A stretch of DNA of 64,000 nt from Amycolatopsis thermalba. GTDB lineage: Bacteria > Actinomycetota > Actinomycetes > Mycobacteriales > Pseudonocardiaceae. Position 1 is the stretch's first letter. Each line of letters begins with the position of its first letter. Location: the NCBI RefSeq assembly GCF_003385215.1, contig NZ_PQHW01000023.1, forward strand, positions 1 to 64,000. The letters run 5' to 3'. Below the pieces are notes generated by a model. That model was not told the origin of the DNA and ran no database searches. It worked only from the letters and a program-made list of their open reading frames with translations. Made by a program: the position numbers and the translations under genes. Of this stretch, positions 35,019-43,255 are shown in pieces.

Positions 35019-36137
35019 TCAGGAGATACCCAGCTGCTGGCAGACCGCGGCGGTGTCGCCGCCGCAGATCTCGCTCGCCTTGACGTAACCCTGGTCGACC
35101 ACCATCTTCACGTTCTCCTTGGTGATCGAGAACGGCTGCAGCAGCACCGACTTGACCGTGCGGTTGCCGGTCGGGTCGGTCGAAGTCTGCTTGGCGATCG
35201 CGTCGGCGCCGGCGGTGTCGCCCTTGACCAGCGCGGCGGCCAGCTGCGCGGTGGCGTCGGCCTCCTGCTGGATCGGCTTGAACACCGTCGAGTACTGCTG
35301 GCCCTGCAGGATGGACTTCAGGCCGGCGGCGCTGGCGTCCTGGCCGGTGACCGGGACCGAACCGGCGAGGCCGTTCTTCTGCAGCACCGTGATCACGGCA
35401 CCGGCCATGCCGTCGTTGGCGGCCAGCACACCGTCGACCTTGCCGCCGTTGGCGGACAGGAACTGCTCGAACGTCGCGCCACCGACCGCGTTGTCCCACT
35501 TGTCGATGCGCTGGCTGGCGACCTTCTTCAGCGCGCCCGAGCTGTAGAGCGGGCCGAGGACCTCCTGCTGCCCGTTGTAGAACAGGGTCGCGTTGTTGTC
35601 CGTCGGCGAGCCCTCGATCTCGATGACCTGGGCGCCGGGCTTGTTCTTCAGCGCGTCCGCGAGCGCCTGGCCCTGCAGGCGGCCGACCTGGACGTTGTCG
35701 AAGCTGACGTAGTAGTCGGCGCTGCCACCGAGGTTGAGGCGGTCGTAGTTGATGACCGGAACGCCCTGCTGCTTGGCCTTCTGCTCGACGGTGGCGCCGA
35801 CGTCCCCGCTGGGCGCGGCGATGATCAGGACCTTGACGCCCTGGCTGAGCATGCTGTCGGCCTGCTGCGCGAACCGCTGGTTGTCGCCCTGGGCGTTCTC
35901 GATGATCGGGCTGAGCCCGGCCTTCGTCAGCGCCGACTGGAGCATCGGCTGGTCGAAGCCGGCCCACCGGGCCGAGGTCGCGGTTTCGGGCAGGATCACG
36001 CCGACCTTCGGGCCGCCGTTGTCGGACCCGCCGCTCCCACCGCTTTCGTTGTTGGCGCTGTTCGCACCGCACGCGGTCAGCGCCAGGACGAGCCCGGTGC
36101 CCGCGGCGGCCAGCGCGAGGGTCTTTCTCCGCTTCAT
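35019..36137 (-). CDS. xylF: Xylose-type sugar-binding lipoprotein
   Basis: A 372-residue periplasmic-binding-protein-like domain of the XylF/RbsB class. ATG 36137 gives a lipoprotein signal (KRRKTLALAAAG to LALTAC), followed by a Gly/Ser/Asn-rich linker. The mature protein has KVGVILPETATSARWAGFD, NYDRLNLGGSADYYVSFDNV and VDGVLAANDGMAGAVI, closely matching the D-xylose-binding group (Tyr-Asp-Arg and Asn-Asp-Gly positions). It is the first gene of the operon and lies directly behind two tandem palindromic operators. It should deliver xylose or a similar pentose to the permease. Confidence 0.92.
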   Translation of the reverse strand: MKRRKTLALAAAGTGLVLALTACGANSANNESGGSGGSDNGGPKVGVILPETATSARWAGFDQPMLQSALTKAGLSPIIENAQGDNQRFAQQADSMLSQGVKVLIIAAPSGDVGATVEQKAKQQGVPVINYDRLNLGGSADYYVSFDNVQVGRLQGQALADALKNKPGAQVIEIEGSPTDNNATLFYNGQQEVLGPLYSSGALKKVASQRIDKWDNAVGGATFEQFLSANGGKVDGVLAANDGMAGAVITVLQKNGLAGSVPVTGQDASAAGLKSILQGQQYSTVFKPIQQEADATAQLAAALVKGDTAGADAIAKQTSTDPTGNRTVKSVLLQPFSITKENVKMVVDQGYVKASEICGGDTAAVCQQLGIS

Positions 36138-36155
36138 TGCGTCCCCTTGGCAGGA

Positions 36156-36197
36156 ATGTTGTGGCTCACAACATTTGAATGTTGTGGCCGACAACAT
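36156..36197 (-). promoter_or_regulatory. Two tandem ROK-type operators upstream of xylF
   Basis: Site 1 (36156-36174) is atgttgtg-gct-cacaacat, a perfect 8-bp dyad. Site 2 (36179-36197) is atgttgt-ggccg-acaacat, a perfect 7-bp dyad. The two 19-bp sites have centres 23 bp apart, about two helical turns, and lie 19-60 bp upstream of the lipoprotein start. The AT-rich, ACAAC-containing dyads fit a ROK/XylR-type repressor. Confidence 0.8.
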
Positions 36198-36262
36198 ACG
36201 TCGTAACCGCGTGTGAGGGAAGCCCGCTCCGACACGTTCCGGTAACAAAAGGGCCGCGATCC

Positions 36263-36561
36263 TCAAGTCTCGGACGGACGGGCAGGCCTTCCGGCCCTAC
36301 CGGGCAAAACGGGGTGGGCACCGGCGTAGCCGCCCCAGTCGATCACCGCGCACGGCACGTCGCCGACCACCCAAGCGTCGTGGCCGGGCGGGCAGATCAT
36401 GACGTCCCCGGGCCCGAAGCCGGCCTGGTCGCCGTCGTCCATGCGGATCGTCATCCGTCCGGACAGGACGTAGCCGGTGTGGTTCGCCTGACAGCTCTCC
36501 GTACCCGCGATCGGTTGATGTGCTGGGACCACCGCCAGCCCGGGTGGAACGTCGCGCGACC
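36263..36561 (-). pseudogene. Truncated, frameshifted cupin pseudogene
   Basis: Cupin-like sequence is split over two frames. GRATFHPGWRWSQHI (from 36561 downward) is in one frame. A single missing base near 36512-36518 shifts the rest (PIAGTESCQANHTGYVLSGR, then FGPGDVMICPPGHDAWVVGD) into another frame, which ends at 36263. Intact relatives I remember read ...GRATF.PGWRWS.H.KPIAGT.SCQ..HTGY.LSGRM continuously. The first ~25 residues and a start codon are also missing, because the M1 peptidase stop lies only 30 bp upstream. The gene is therefore broken twice. Confidence 0.75.
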
Positions 36562-36590
36562 CGCGGCTACGCCGGCTACGCCAAGCGGCG

Positions 36591-37832
36591 CTAGCCCAGC
36601 CAGGCGGCGAAGTCGTCGCGCAGCGAGACACCCGCCACGCGCTCCGCGTGCGCGACGAACTCCTCGGTCGTGACCGTGCCGTGCGCGTGCCCGGCCACCC
36701 ACGACCGCAGCAGGCCGAAGAACACCTCGTCGCCCACGCGGGCGCGCAGCCCGTGCAGCACCAGGGCCCCGCGCTTGTACACCTGCTCGTCGAACAGGCG
36801 CGCCACCCCGGGGTCGCCGATCGCGACGTCGGTGCCCACCCGCGCCCGCCAGTCACGCGCCAGCGCCGCTGCGGACGCGCCGCCGGAGGCCTCCGACCAC
36901 AGCCACTCCGCGTAGGTGGCGAAGCCCTCGTTGAGCCAGATGTGCCGCCAGCCGGCGACCGTGAGGCTGTTGCCGAACCACTGGTGCGCCAGCTCGTGCA
37001 CCACCAGCCGCTCGAACGTGCGACGGCCGTCGACGTGGTTGGCGCCGAAGATCGCCATCCCCTGCGCCTCGATCGGGTCGTCCAGGTCGTCGTCGGTGAC
37101 CACCACGACGTACTCGCCGAACGGGTACGGCCCGAACCACTCGGTCAGCCGCGCCATCATCTCCGGCTGGCGGCCGAAGTCGTGCGCGGCCGCCGCACGC
37201 AGCCGCCGCGGCACCGCGAGCCGTTGCCCCGCGCCGAGTTCCAGCTCGTCGTACCGTCCGATCTGGACACTCATCAGGTACGGCGCGGTCGGCTCGCGCC
37301 GCTCGAACACCCACGTCGTCGCGCTGCCCCCGGCCCGCCGGGCGACCAGGTCCCCGGTCACCAGCACGGTGTAGGCCGACGCGGTGGTCAGCGACACCCG
37401 GTAGGCCGCCTTGTCGCCGGGCCGGTCGTTGCACGGGAACCAGGACGGCGCCCCGGTCGGCTGGCTCGCCACGAGCGCGCCGTCGGTCAGCTCGTCCCAC
37501 CCGATCTCGCCCCACCGGCTCGCGACCGGACGCGGGTTGCCGGCGTAGCGCACCTCGACGGTGAACTCGCCGCGCACCGGGCGGGCCGGTGCGACCACGA
37601 GCTTGCCGCCGCGGTGGGTGAACCGCGCGGTCCGCCCGTCGACGCGCACGCCCTTGACGCTGAACCCGGCCAGGTCGAGCGGGATCCGGTTCAGCTCGTC
37701 CACCGCGACGGCGGACAGGACCGCCCGCGCGCTCAACCGGTTCGGCCCGATCTTGTAGTCCAGCTCCAGGTCGTAGTGCGTGACCCGGTAGCCGGTGCTG
37801 CCGTGGCCGAGCGTGTAGTCCGCGCGGCTCAC
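36591..37832 (-). CDS. M1-family zinc metallopeptidase coupled to the Pls/PosA synthetase
   Basis: A 413-residue M1 aminopeptidase-like protein. The zinc site is complete: HELAHQWFGN (HExxH), then 18 residues on the Glu in LNEGFATYAEW. The catalytic Tyr is probably in the YKRGALVLHGL segment. The exopeptidase motif GAMEN is replaced by EAQGMAIFGA, so substrate anchoring may differ. There is no helical C-terminal domain IV, making it shorter than PepN but like many actinobacterial members. The GTG at 37832 overlaps the synthetase stop by 4 bp (another GTG at 37841 is possible), so the two are translationally coupled. Streptomyces poly-lysine producers carry a zinc peptidase that degrades the polymer, which is the best analogy. 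Confidence 0.87.
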   Translation of the reverse strand: MSRADYTLGHGSTGYRVTHYDLELDYKIGPNRLSARAVLSAVAVDELNRIPLDLAGFSVKGVRVDGRTARFTHRGGKLVVAPARPVRGEFTVEVRYAGNPRPVASRWGEIGWDELTDGALVASQPTGAPSWFPCNDRPGDKAAYRVSLTTASAYTVLVTGDLVARRAGGSATTWVFERREPTAPYLMSVQIGRYDELELGAGQRLAVPRRLRAAAAHDFGRQPEMMARLTEWFGPYPFGEYVVVVTDDDLDDPIEAQGMAIFGANHVDGRRTFERLVVHELAHQWFGNSLTVAGWRHIWLNEGFATYAEWLWSEASGGASAAALARDWRARVGTDVAIGDPGVARLFDEQVYKRGALVLHGLRARVGDEVFFGLLRSWVAGHAHGTVTTEEFVAHAERVAGVSLRDDFAAWLG

Positions 37833-40800
37833 GCCCGCCACGCCGCGATCGGGTTGCCCAGCCAGCGGCTGTCGGCCGGGACGGCGTCGCCGCGGGTCAC
37901 CAGCGAACCCGGGCCCACGGTGGTGCGCGCGCCGATGCTGGCGCCGGGCAGCACGATCCCGTGCGGGCCGACGGTCGCGCCCCCGGCCACGGTCACCTCG
38001 CTCATGCGCATGATCCGATCATGGAACAGGTGGGTCTGCACGACACAGCCGCGGTTCACGGTCGCGCCGTCGCCCAGCCGCACCAGGTCCGTCTCCGGCA
38101 GCCAGTAGGTCTCCAGCCACACCCCGCGGCCGATCTTCGCGCCCATCGTGCGCAGCCAGCACGGCAGCAGCGGCGTGCCCGCGCTCCAGCCCACCAGCCA
38201 CGGCACGGCGAGCGTCTCGACGAACGTGTCGGCCAGCTCGGTGCGCCACACGAACGAACTCCACAGCGGGTGGTCCACCGCGCGGAACCGGCCGGTCAGC
38301 GCCCACTTCACCGCCGTGGTCACCGCACCCGCCACCAGCCCGGCGCCGAGCAGCACGACCGGCGCGGCGAGCGCGGCCACGACCAGCCCCGCCGCCGACC
38401 GCACGGCCGCCAGCGCCGCGAGCACCAGCACCGCGAGCGCGACCGCGCACATCACCGGCACGATCCGGCACAGCTCGACCGCCGCCCGCGCGACCTTCAG
38501 CCGCGACGGGGGCGCGAACGTGCGGCTCGCATCCGCCGTCTCGACCGCACGGCGCAGCGGCATCGGCGGCATGCCGAGGTAGGACGAGCCCTTCTTCGCC
38601 TTGCGCGGCGCGGAGGACAGCACCCCGACCAGGCCGCGCTTGGGCACCGCGCGCCCGGCCGCGGCCATGCCGGAGTTGCCGAGGAACGCCTGCTTGCCGA
38701 TGCGCGTCGGGGCGACGTGCAGCCAGCCGTGGCCCAGCTCGTAGGTGGCGACCATGGTGTCGTCGGCGAGGAACGCGCCGTCGTCGACCTGCGTCATCCG
38801 CGGCACCGCGAGCACCGTCGAAACCTCCGCGCCGCGGCCGACCTTCGCGCCCAGCAGCCGCCGCCACACCGGCGTGAACAGGCTCGCGTACAGCGGGAAC
38901 AGCACCTGGCGGGCCAGGTCCATCAGCCGCTCGGTGGCCCACACCTGCCACGCGATCCGGCCGTGCACCGGGTGGTAGCCCTGGTGCAGGCCCAGCCCGA
39001 GCAGCCGCACGGACACCAGCACCAGCAGCGCGTACGTGCCGAACGCGGCGAGCGTCGCCACCGGCACCGCCAGCAACGCGGCACCCAGCGCGGCGCCGAT
39101 GGTCGTCGAATCCGCGACCGCGGCGCCCAGCACCAGCAGGCCGGGCACGGCGGCGAGCACCGGGAACAGGCCCAGCACGAACGACGCGGCGCCGTAGGCG
39201 AAGGCCCAGAACCGCGACCGCGGCGGCCGGCTGGACGGCCAGCGCAGCGCGCCCTTGCCGTCGCGGCGGGCGGGCGAACCGGCCCAGCGCTGACCGGCCG
39301 GCACCGCGCCCAGCACGGTCGACCCGGCCGCGATCTCCGCGCCCTTGCCGATCCGCGCCCCGGGCAGCAGCACGCTGCGCGCGCCGACGCGGGCACCGGC
39401 GCCGATGCGGATCTTGCCGAGGTGCACGACGTCGCCGTCCACCCAGTGCCCGGACAGGTCCACCTCGGGCTCCACGGCCGCCCCGCGGCCCAGCTTGAGC
39501 AGCCCGGTGACCGGCGGCGGGGTGTGCAGATCGACGTCCTTGCCCACCTTCGCGCCCAGCGCGCGGGCGTAGAGCGTCATCCAGCTCGCGCCCGAAATCC
39601 CGGCCGCACCGGCGGCCTCGGCGAGCCGTTCGGCCGCCCACAGTCGCAAGTGGACCCGGCCACCACGCGGGTGGGTGCCCGGGCGGACCCCGCGCAGCAA
39701 CAGCCGGGCGCCGCCCGCCGCGATGCCGATGCGGCCCGGCGGGCTGAACAGCACCAGCCACGCCAGGGCGAGCGACCACCACGGCACCGCGGGCGCCCAC
39801 GCGACACCGGTCATCGAGAGCACAGTGGACAGTGCGGCCAGCGCGGTCAGCCAGCGCAGGCCGGTCAGGGCGAGCACCGGCACGGCCAGCACGGCCTGGA
39901 CGGCTCCCGCCCGGCGCGGCACCGGACGGACATCGCGCCGCCGGGCGGTTTCCCCCTCCAGGCCGTCCAGCAGCGCGGCGAGCTGCCCGAGCTTCGGGTG
40001 CCGGTAGAGGTCGGCGACCGAGACCTGCGGGTGCCGGGTGCGGATGCGCGCGACCAGCTGCGCCGCGGTGAGGCTGCCACCACCATTGGTGAAGAAGTCC
40101 GCGCCCGGATCGGTGACCGGCACGCCGAGGATCTCGGCCCAGCCCTCGGCGAGCCACGACTCGGTGGGCGTCAACGCCGCCACACTGTCCACTGTGGCCA
40201 GCGGCCAGGGCAGCGCGGCGCGGTCGACCTTGCCGGAGGTCCGGGTGGGCAGATCGTCCACGACCGCGAGCAGCGGCACCAGCGCGGCGGGCAGCCGGTC
40301 CCGGAGCAGAGCCGACGCCTCGGCGGTGCCGAACTCGCCCTGCGGCACGACGTAACCGACGAGGACCTGGTTGCCCGCCTTGGTGGTGCGGATCGCGGCG
40401 GCGGCTCCGGCGACGCCGGGCAGCGCCTGCAGCGCGGCGTCCACCTCGCCCAGCTCGATGCGGCGGCCGCCGAGCTTGACCTGCTCGTCGGCTCGGCCCA
40501 GGAAGACCAGCCCCGCGGGCTCGGCGCGCACCAGGTCGCCGCTGCGATAGGCGCGCTCCCAGCCCAGCGCGGGCAGCGGCGCGAACTTCTCGGCGTCCTT
40601 CACCGGATCCAGGTAACGGGCCAGGCCGGCGCCGCCGATCACCAGCTCACCGGACTCCCCCATCGCCACCGGCTCCCCGGCCGCATCGACGACCACGAGG
40701 TCCCAGCCGGCCAGCGGCAGCCCGATCCGCACCGGGCCCTCACCGGTCAGCGGCGCGGCGCAGGCGACCACCGTGGCCTCGGTGGGGCCGTAGGTGTTCC

Positions 40801-41689
40801 ACACCTCGCGGCCCTCGACGGCGACCCGCCCGGCCAGCTCCGGCGGGCACGCCTCGCCGCCGAAGATCAGCAGCCGCACGTCCTCCAGCGCCTCGGCCGG
40901 CCACAGCGCGGCCAGCGTCGGCACGGTGGACACGATCGTGATGCGCTGCGCGACCAGCCACGGCCCCAGGTCCACCCCGGTGCGCACGAGCGCGCGCGGT
41001 GCCGGCACCAGGCACGCGCCGTGCCGCCAGGCCAGCCACATCTCCTCGCACGAGGCGTCGAAGGCGACCGACAGCCCGGCCAGCACCCGGTCACCGGGCC
41101 CGATCGGTTCCTCGGTGAGGAACAGCCGGGCCTCGGCGGCGACGAAGGCGGCCGCCGAGCCGTGGCTGACCGCCACCCCCTTGGGTTTGCCGGTCGAGCC
41201 GGAGGTGAAGATGATCCACGCGTCGTCCTCCGGCGCGGGCGGCCCGGTGCGGCGGCCGGGCTCGGCGAGCATCGTCAGCCCGTCGTCCATCAGCACCGCG
41301 CACACCCCGGCCTCGCCGAACACCAGCTCGGCCCGCTCGTCCGGGTCGTCGGCGTCGACCGGCACGTACGCCGCGCCCGCGGCGAGCACGCCCAGGATCG
41401 CGACGTAGAGGTCGGCGGTGCCGGAGGAGATCCGCACGCCGACGCGGTCACCGCGGCCTACGCCCTCGGCGGCCAGCCGCCGGCCCAGCGCCTGCGCCTC
41501 CTCGGACAGCCTGCGGTAGCTCAGGACCCGCGCACCGTCGTCGAGCGCCGCCGCGTTCGGGTGCCGCGCGGCGGTGGCGGCCAGCACGTCCAGCAGCGTG
41601 CGCCGGGCCGCGGCGGGTCCACCCGGGAACAGGGCCCGCTCCGGGGCCAGCACCCCGGGCAGCATCGGATCGAGAACGGGCGCGCCCAT
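37829..41689 (-). CDS. Pls/PosA-family membrane-bound single-module NRPS
   Basis: A 1286-residue protein. It contains an adenylation domain (IIFTSGSTGKPKG at ~159-171, NTYGPTEATV at ~298-307, YRSGDLVR at ~381, K487 in TSGKVDR) and a carrier domain (FFTNGGGSLTAAQL, phosphopantetheine Ser539). These are followed by about six transmembrane helices alternating with three left-handed beta-helix acyltransferase-like blocks. There is no condensation or thioesterase domain. This is the layout of epsilon-poly-lysine synthetase Pls, in which the C-terminal blocks link amino acids. Manual alignment to PheA gives the pocket code D-A-E-S-I-G-T-V-V-K, with an acidic residue at position 239, consistent with a cationic substrate such as lysine. 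ATG 41689 follows ggaagg; a GTG at 41698 is possible. Confidence 0.88.
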   Translation of the reverse strand: MGAPVLDPMLPGVLAPERALFPGGPAAARRTLLDVLAATAARHPNAAALDDGARVLSYRRLSEEAQALGRRLAAEGVGRGDRVGVRISSGTADLYVAILGVLAAGAAYVPVDADDPDERAELVFGEAGVCAVLMDDGLTMLAEPGRRTGPPAPEDDAWIIFTSGSTGKPKGVAVSHGSAAAFVAAEARLFLTEEPIGPGDRVLAGLSVAFDASCEEMWLAWRHGACLVPAPRALVRTGVDLGPWLVAQRITIVSTVPTLAALWPAEALEDVRLLIFGGEACPPELAGRVAVEGREVWNTYGPTEATVVACAAPLTGEGPVRIGLPLAGWDLVVVDAAGEPVAMGESGELVIGGAGLARYLDPVKDAEKFAPLPALGWERAYRSGDLVRAEPAGLVFLGRADEQVKLGGRRIELGEVDAALQALPGVAGAAAAIRTTKAGNQVLVGYVVPQGEFGTAEASALLRDRLPAALVPLLAVVDDLPTRTSGKVDRAALPWPLATVDSVAALTPTESWLAEGWAEILGVPVTDPGADFFTNGGGSLTAAQLVARIRTRHPQVSVADLYRHPKLGQLAALLDGLEGETARRRDVRPVPRRAGAVQAVLAVPVLALTGLRWLTALAALSTVLSMTGVAWAPAVPWWSLALAWLVLFSPPGRIGIAAGGARLLLRGVRPGTHPRGGRVHLRLWAAERLAEAAGAAGISGASWMTLYARALGAKVGKDVDLHTPPPVTGLLKLGRGAAVEPEVDLSGHWVDGDVVHLGKIRIGAGARVGARSVLLPGARIGKGAEIAAGSTVLGAVPAGQRWAGSPARRDGKGALRWPSSRPPRSRFWAFAYGAASFVLGLFPVLAAVPGLLVLGAAVADSTTIGAALGAALLAVPVATLAAFGTYALLVLVSVRLLGLGLHQGYHPVHGRIAWQVWATERLMDLARQVLFPLYASLFTPVWRRLLGAKVGRGAEVSTVLAVPRMTQVDDGAFLADDTMVATYELGHGWLHVAPTRIGKQAFLGNSGMAAAGRAVPKRGLVGVLSSAPRKAKKGSSYLGMPPMPLRRAVETADASRTFAPPSRLKVARAAVELCRIVPVMCAVALAVLVLAALAAVRSAAGLVVAALAAPVVLLGAGLVAGAVTTAVKWALTGRFRAVDHPLWSSFVWRTELADTFVETLAVPWLVGWSAGTPLLPCWLRTMGAKIGRGVWLETYWLPETDLVRLGDGATVNRGCVVQTHLFHDRIMRMSEVTVAGGATVGPHGIVLPGASIGARTTVGPGSLVTRGDAVPADSRWLGNPIAAWRA

Positions 41690-41766
41690 GGAGTTCACCT
41701 TCCGCCAGCGGCCGGGCCGGAACTCGCGAAAAGAGTGAGGCGCCCGCGCGGGACGATCACTCTACC

Positions 41767-41825
41767 CGAGGTGAACACCGGGTGACCGGGCGGTCTCACC
41801 GGGGTGTCGCCGCCGTCACACCTCG
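41767..41825. terminator. Possible stem-loop between der and the NRPS
   Basis: An outer 7-bp stem (cgaggtg, 41767-41773, with cacctcg, 41819-41825) and a bulged inner stem (acaccgggtga near 41775 with tcaccggggtgt near 41796) form a hairpin directly after the der stop on the minus strand. No U-tract is present. It probably separates der from the synthetase unit. A -10-like tagagt lies just beyond it on the minus strand. Confidence 0.35.
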
Positions 41826-41830
41826 TTGCG

Positions 41831-43255
41831 TCACTTGCCCTTCTTGCCGGGCCGGGGCTTCTTTTCCCGCACCCGCACGTTGATCCGCACCGGGCTGCCC
41901 TCGAAACCGAAGCGCTCGCGGAACTTCCGCTCGATGAACCGGCGGTACCCGGCCTCCAGGAAGCCGGTGGTGAACAGCACCAGCGTCGGCGGGCGGATGC
42001 CGGCCTGGGTGGCGAACAGCACCTTCGGCTGCTTGCCGCCACGCACCGGCGGCGGGGTGGCCGCGATCAGCTCGGACAGCCACGAGTTCAGCTGCCCGGT
42101 CGGCACCCGCTGGTCCCACGACGCGAGCGCGGTCCGCAGCGCCGGCGCGAGCTTGCGCACCGAACGACCGGTGAGCGCGGAGATGTTGACCCGCTCGGCC
42201 CACGTGACGCGCACCAGGCCGCGGTCGAGTTCCTTCTCCAGCTGGTGGCGGCGGTCCTCGTCGACGAGGTCCCACTTGTTCAGCGCGAGCACACAGGCCC
42301 GGCCGGACTCCACGACCGACGTCAGCACCCGCAGGTCCTGTTCGGACAGCGGCTCGCTGGCGTCCAGCAGGACGATGACGACCTCGGAGGAGTCGATGGC
42401 CGCCTTGGTGCGCAGCGACGCGTAGTACTCGGTGCCGCTCGCGGTGTGCACCCGCTTGCGCAGACCGGCGGTGTCGACGAACCGCCACACCTGGCCGTCC
42501 AGCTCGACCAGCGAGTCGACCGGGTCGACCGTGGTGCCGGCGACCGAGTCCACGACGGACCGCTGCTCGCCGGTGAGCTTGTTGAGCAGGCTGGACTTGC
42601 CCACGTTCGGCTTGCCGACCAGCGCGACGCGGCGCGGCCCGGCCACGGCCTCGCGCTCCCGCGGCGCCTCCGGCAGCGCCTTGATGATCGCGTCGAGCAG
42701 GTCGCCCGAGCTGCGGCCGTGCAGCGCGCTCACCGGGTACGGCTCGCCCAGGCCGAGCGACCACAGCGAGGCCACGTCGGACAGCAGCCGCTCGTCGTCG
42801 ACCTTGTTGGCGGCCAGCAGCACCGGCCGCTTCGACCGGCGCAGCACCTTGGCCACCGCCTCGTCGGTCGCGGTCGCGCCAACCGAGGCGTCCACCACGA
42901 CCAGCACCGCGTCCGCGGTGTTCATCGCGAGCTCGGCCTGCGCCGCGACCGCGGCCTGCAGGCCGGTCGCGCTCGGCTCCCAGCCACCCGTGTCGACCAC
43001 GGTGAACCGGCGCCCGGCCCACTGCGCGTCGTAGGCCACCCGGTCCCGGGTCACACCGGGGGTGTCCTGCACGACCGCCTCGCGACGGCCCAGGATCCGG
43101 TTGACCAGGGTGGACTTGCCCACGTTCGGGCGCCCGACGACGGCCAGCACGGGCTGGCTCAGCTCGGCTTCCTCCTCGGACGCCGCGTCGTCGGCCTGGT
43201 TGTCGAGCGCGGTGAACTCCGCCTCGTCCGACCAGGTCCCGTCAAGCTCCGTCAT
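41831..43255 (-). CDS. der: Ribosome-assembly GTPase Der (EngA)
   Basis: A 474-residue double-GTPase protein. G-domain 1 has [23 protein letters not shown] and NKVD. G-domain 2 has [10 protein letters not shown], the altered [18 protein letters not shown] and NKWD. A C-terminal KH-like domain ends in a basic tail ([12 protein letters not shown]). Der binds the 50S precursor and is essential in most bacteria. I chose ATG 43255, which overlaps the acyltransferase stop by 4 bp. The acidic N-terminal extension of ~30 residues is common in actinobacteria. Confidence 0.95.

Follow-up and report, generated by a model that had tools for sequence, protein, structure and literature searches.

A Pls-type synthetase gene overlapping an M1 peptidase gene in Amycolatopsis thermalba: a probable homolog of the Streptomyces albulus pls-pldII operon

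What is built, and what is taken apart, by a locus of Amycolatopsis thermalba in which the gene of a large synthetase runs directly into that of an M1 zinc peptidase? The 64,000-nucleotide stretch of DNA that we analysed (the window) carries both genes on its minus strand, and we consider it very probable that they are a two-gene operon homologous to pls-pldII of Streptomyces albulus, making and degrading epsilon-poly-L-lysine. Epsilon-poly-lysine is a food preservative, produced industrially with Streptomyces. The two genes, the parts of their products and the upstream neighbour are as follows; both genes lie where an earlier note on this DNA had placed them, and each is an open frame on the minus strand.

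36591..37832, minus strand: M1 zinc peptidase, PldII-like, 413 aa, GTG start (PF01433, PF17900)
36927..36998, minus strand: zinc-binding and catalytic motif of the M1 peptidase, HELAHQWFGN...E (residues 279-302)
37829..41689, minus strand: predicted Pls-type epsilon-poly-L-lysine synthetase, 1286 aa (TIGR02353, 7WEW match, pocket code)
37832..39937, minus strand: predicted membrane polymerisation region of the synthetase, three long-helix pairs with a beta-helix after each (AlphaFold2)
39968..40156, minus strand: carrier (thiolation) domain, phosphopantetheine Ser539 in GGGS (PF00550)
40202..41689, minus strand: adenylation domain, residues ~1-496 (PF00501 and PF13193, 7WEW alignment)
41831..43255, minus strand: der (EngA GTPase), the upstream neighbour, outside the system (MMR_HSR1, KH_dom-like)

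The synthetase frame more likely opens at ATG 41689, with GGAAGGTG directly 5' of it, than at the alternative GTG 41698, and its stop codon is 37829-37831. Pfam finds AMP-binding (PF00501), AMP-binding_C (PF13193), PP-binding (PF00550) and hexapeptide repeats in the product, and no condensation or thioesterase domain at E 0.001, in agreement with the adenylation and carrier layout free of both domains that the earlier note had described. The terminal-domain model of the Pls/PosA family (TIGR02353, NCBIfam) matches residues 600-1284, numbered from the GTG start, at 732.3 bits against a curated cut-off of 423.1, and the window synthetase is the sole match above that cut-off in the whole genome. 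Its best PDB match is 7WEW, the adenylation domain of the S. albulus epsilon-poly-lysine synthetase (674-679 bits; the matches ranking next score 346-402), with 333 of 484 aligned residues identical (69%). The synthetase is a member of the Pls/PosA family, and it is not a chance open reading frame, because orthologs occur in many genomes and dN/dS is low. Two samples of relatives were compared with it: a search of 41 genomes gave 25 close-ortholog loci (60-100% identity, the window's own record included), and a genome scan gave at least 583 confirmed relatives, of which the best 80 form a sample biased to high similarity. Together these make 105 ortholog rows, two of them (L017 and L042) identical, and the carrier-domain serine is conserved in all 105 (25 loci and the best 80 of at least 583). 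A scan of 36100-42000 for promoters and terminators, a weak test in a high-G+C actinobacterium, found none.

How might such an enzyme be arranged in the membrane? The membrane architecture of the synthetase is a modelled one: AlphaFold2, given residues 585-1286 and 27 aligned sequences (mean pLDDT 88.9, pTM 0.89), returns three repeats, each built from two long helices, some shorter ones and a beta-helix, with the long pairs at residues ~592-664, 826-898 and 1076-1131, and the triple beta-helix layout claimed from the sequence beforehand is what this model displays. Six membrane helices in three pairs and three beta-helix regions, C1-C3, are predicted, the insertion of the helices being judged by a hydropathy check only, alongside the model. 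The same layout of helix pairs and beta-helices has been predicted for PosA (PMC10522769). Foldseek places the model nearest to hexapeptide acyltransferases (E about 1e-4 to 1e-3, query TM-scores of only 0.11-0.15); its best 50 matches include no solved homolog of the entire membrane region, and a literature search for a Pls cryo-EM structure found none.

Which amino acid, then, would be activated? The pocket residues 211, 212, 215, 254, 275, 277, 299, 307, 308 and 487 read DAESIGTVVK; the earlier note had arrived at this code by hand, with its own mapping to PheA, and an alignment to 7WEW confirms it, all ten residues being the same in the window and in S. albulus. The code recurs in 103 of the 105 ortholog rows (25 loci and the best 80 of at least 583), the other two carrying DAESVGTVVK (I to V), and its alanine at position 2 and glutamate at position 3 agree with the lysine enzymes described in PMC10522769. 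By analogy with these enzymes, epsilon-poly-L-lysine is the likeliest product of the locus. The earlier proposal of a poly-lysine-like or short cationic oligomer is supported, and the evidence favours epsilon-poly-L-lysine over an unspecified oligomer.

The peptidase gene begins within the last letters of the synthetase gene, GTGA at 37829-37832 being shared between the M1 start GTG 37832 and the synthetase stop; this is the 4-bp overlap already claimed for the pair, and an alternative start at GTG 37841 would make it 13 bp. Pfam finds both M1 domains, N-terminal and catalytic, and the two histidines and two glutamates of the HEXXH...E motif are identical in 106 of 106 aligned M1 rows, a set that includes partners of the best 80 of at least 583 scan relatives and in which the window peptidase occurs twice. 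Loss of the M1 exopeptidase glutamate was considered and rejected: the GxMEN segment reads PIEAQG here, and its glutamate aligns and is identical in 106/106 rows. The window peptidase shares 52-59% identity with the M1 proteins encoded next to pls in Streptomyces and Kitasatospora. On a crude hydropathy scan the window protein peaks at 1.26 and shows no membrane segment; values above 1.6 occur in 2 of the 106 rows. Where the enzyme acts is uncertain, because the protein has no membrane segment here whereas one paper puts PldII outside the cell membrane (PMC9223678). The genome has two further M1 matches elsewhere, with 40% and 32% identity to the window peptidase; the former (L037, G000:C35:60411-61655) may be a counterpart of the S. 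albulus PLD.

Is the pairing of the two genes a lasting one? The earlier note had singled out the adjacency as worth following across relatives, and a co-directional M1 gene does lie directly downstream of the synthetase in 105 of the 106 close-ortholog loci, which come from many families (26 loci and the best 80 of at least 583). Every one of the 25 loci of the 41-genome search has a same-strand M1 gene after the synthetase, and 21 have a start codon that permits the 4-bp overlap. Among the best 80 of at least 583 scan relatives, the M1 match is likewise downstream on the same strand in 80/80, with a spacing that runs from a 33 bp overlap to a 685 bp gap; a start codon falls within -60 to +150 bp of the synthetase stop in 77 of these 80, and a 4-bp overlap is available in 42. 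The sole exception is a synthetase of another genus on contig G024:C23 (L130, G024:C23:60000-73000), 57% identical and with the code DAESIGTVVK, which has no M1 match within its ~4.9 and ~4.4 kb of flank; genome G024 also holds a paired copy (L019). An M1 partner is thus not strictly required, since the same pocket occurs there with no M1 neighbour, and L130 may be an instance in nature of polymer synthesis not tied to the peptidase. Two apparent pseudogenes, a match split in two in G004 and one with a reported TGA in G007, were rejected as such, the re-extracted frames being open and free of internal stops.

The window pair has close published relatives. The pls and pldII genes of S. albulus overlap by 4 nt within a single operon (PMC4361855), so the parallel with the Streptomyces zinc peptidase that the earlier note had drawn holds for gene order and overlap; pldII has been called the principal degrading enzyme, and its repression is reported to give lower polymer tolerance and longer polymer (PMC9223678). 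The two systems are alike in the ten pocket residues, gene order, overlap and peptidase partner, and unlike in that the adenylation domains are 69% identical and the window pair lies beside der; the peptidases are a 413-aa protein and the product of a 1404-bp gene (PMC9223678), and the likeness is drawn from the 7WEW domain and the published gene order. A synthetase from Corynebacterium, which shares 51% identity with S. albulus Pls and has an operonic peptidase, yielded epsilon-poly-lysine of 26-35 residues when its pls was expressed in S. coelicolor, a species whose strain M145 has no pls of its own (PMC8117764); this Pls-peptidase operon of C. variabile resembles the window's, belongs to another lineage and is compared by description. 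PosA, the delta-poly-L-ornithine synthetase of Acinetobacter baumannii, shares the family layout and the glutamate at pocket position 3, shows 36% core identity to 7WEW, and, unlike the window enzyme, has methionine and not alanine at position 2; the portion of its report that we cite mentions no M1 partner (PMC10522769). Epsilon-poly-lysine clusters have been annotated in all compared Amycolatopsis strains, thus in the same genus and from genome annotation, with der and the peptidase going unmentioned in the part of that account used here (PMC11004387), and in three Lentzea strains (PMC11092160); the part used of a report on two Amycolatopsis strains (PMC5859366) held nothing on Pls. Given these published operons and clusters, the window pair is a known system, and the earlier note was therefore a correct recognition of it. 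The synthetase-peptidase system is widespread and already well described.

By analogy with these relatives, we picture the adenylation domain activating L-lysine with ATP and loading it onto the carrier domain. Next, the triple beta-helix region in the membrane would link the lysines through bonds between epsilon-amino and alpha-carboxyl groups, and the same region would release or export the epsilon-poly-L-lysine, all without a condensation or thioesterase domain. The overlapping M1 gene would be co-expressed with the synthetase, presumably by translational coupling, and its product would hydrolyse the polymer and in this way set its length, protect the producer or recycle lysine. The window locus may be silent, because C. 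variabile, whose pls is functional, made no polymer detectable in its own culture (PMC8117764).

Within the genus, the synthetase has a fixed place. It is present in 18 of the 19 Amycolatopsis genomes, and der lies upstream of it in all 17 same-genus loci whose flank reaches far enough (that of L025 is too short), at a gap of 141 bp in the window, measured from the der end at 41831. In the scan, der falls within the fetched flank of eight of the best 80 of at least 583 relatives, namely all seven that are titled Amycolatopsis and one of Prauserella endophytica; in A. anabasis it is ~2.6 kb from the synthetase. The one genome without the synthetase, G011, has a different gene after der, and tblastx of the window against its der region gave only noise among the first 60 matches listed. 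Compared with ten relatives by the Nei-Gojobori method, the synthetase gives dN/dS values of 0.083-0.295, by which measure it is under purifying selection, and the peptidase gives values of 0.185-0.520. Presence in 18 of 19 genomes, der adjacency in 17 of 17 loci and purifying selection are the mildly new part of our results.

Phylogeny points the same way as the pocket. In the adenylation-domain tree, 7WEW, the only proven Pls in it, falls with the window inside a clade of 106 rows (the best 80 of at least 583 relatives included) at support 100, away from three distant Pls-like proteins on very long branches, so the grouping with Pls that the earlier note had staked its reading on is what the tree returns; the exact placement of 7WEW is unsure, because long branches meet there, as the tree program warns. 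The full-length tree groups the rows of Micromonosporaceae (in part), Mycobacteriaceae, Nocardia and Amycolatopsis and splits both Streptomycetaceae and Pseudonocardiaceae, with 33 of 104 inner branches weak. Because of these splits and weak branches, the full-length tree suggests long-term vertical descent within the genus and does not extend the case beyond it.

Could the enzymes be as we describe them and the purpose be another? Low-level polymer might be recycled by a cytosolic M1 enzyme and serve physiology, as a nitrogen or lysine store or in the envelope or stress, and not antibiosis; the near-constant presence of the synthetase in the genus, the adjoining der, the purifying selection, the peptidase with no membrane segment in the crude scan and a Pls homolog common to 7/7 Nocardia strains in one survey (PMC4035055) all speak for such a role, but one genus genome lacks the synthetase, and the lower tolerance and shifted chain length that follow pldII repression fit self-protection (PMC9223678), and we regard this reading as unlikely. 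Slightly less likely again is the fuller claim that the Amycolatopsis pair is fixed, selected and locked beside der, with an intracellular peptidase and a poly-lysine that is physiological and not mainly antibiotic: fixed position and purifying selection allow a physiological role and do not demonstrate one, and our literature searches brought up no phenotype in Amycolatopsis.

The two remaining readings each alter one of the enzymes. Members of the broad Pls/PosA family do activate other diamino acids (PMC10522769), and the ten distant Pls-like genes that we found (29-36% identical) have other codes, among them DFECLSCVSK, DSECYGGVTK, DFEYLGTVTK and DGESVSVVNK, so one may ask whether the substrate of the window synthetase is ornithine, diaminobutyrate, diaminopropionate or beta-lysine, and its cationic product accordingly a different one. 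With 10 of 10 pocket residues as in S. albulus Pls, with alanine at position 2 as in lysine enzymes, where ornithine enzymes have methionine and those for shorter diamino acids phenylalanine, and with a poly-beta-lysine code that differs (DGESISVVNK; PMC10522769), we find this very improbable. Equally improbable is that chance has placed a common housekeeping aminopeptidase beside the synthetase. The peptidase does belong to the general M1 family, its best solved match (6a8z, a putative zinc metalloprotease) is unrelated in its naming, and the G024:C23 synthetase does without an M1 neighbour; against this stand the 105 of 106 close-ortholog loci (best 80 of at least 583 included), the absence of a directly downstream M1 gene at all nine distant Pls-like genes that could be judged, the tenth (L133) running to the contig end, and the two further M1 matches elsewhere in the genome. 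We thus keep, as by far the more probable reading, to a synthetase and peptidase of the pls-pldII type that would make and degrade epsilon-poly-L-lysine. The finding alters no current view; a further intact pls-peptidase pair kept in nearly the whole genus adds to enzyme diversity and lends itself to the question of why actinobacteria retain both genes even when no production is seen in culture.

Several smaller observations accompany these results. The distant Pls-like gene of G011 (G011:C25, L027 / L136) has the code DSECYGGVTK, which is also that of a Bdellovibrionales enzyme with modest L-arginine activation (PMC10522769), and is a candidate for another polymer; the distant gene L133 (G024:C47), with DGESVSVVNK, is one residue off DGESISVVNK of the same report, and at another, L138, an M1 match of 33% identity sits on the opposite strand, ~2.4 kb upstream. 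On the 3' side of the window peptidase there follow a small cupin-like remnant and then sugar ABC transporter-like open reading frames, named by reading their translations. No cupin match was found at the corresponding end of L002, L004 and L007. In G010, the cupin gene is convergent with the peptidase and encodes 121 aa, and its first part is missing in the window, where the cupin frame (36263-36561) looks like a remnant; the segment 36322-36561 is inverted relative to L003, L006, L008 and L009, in the last case partially.
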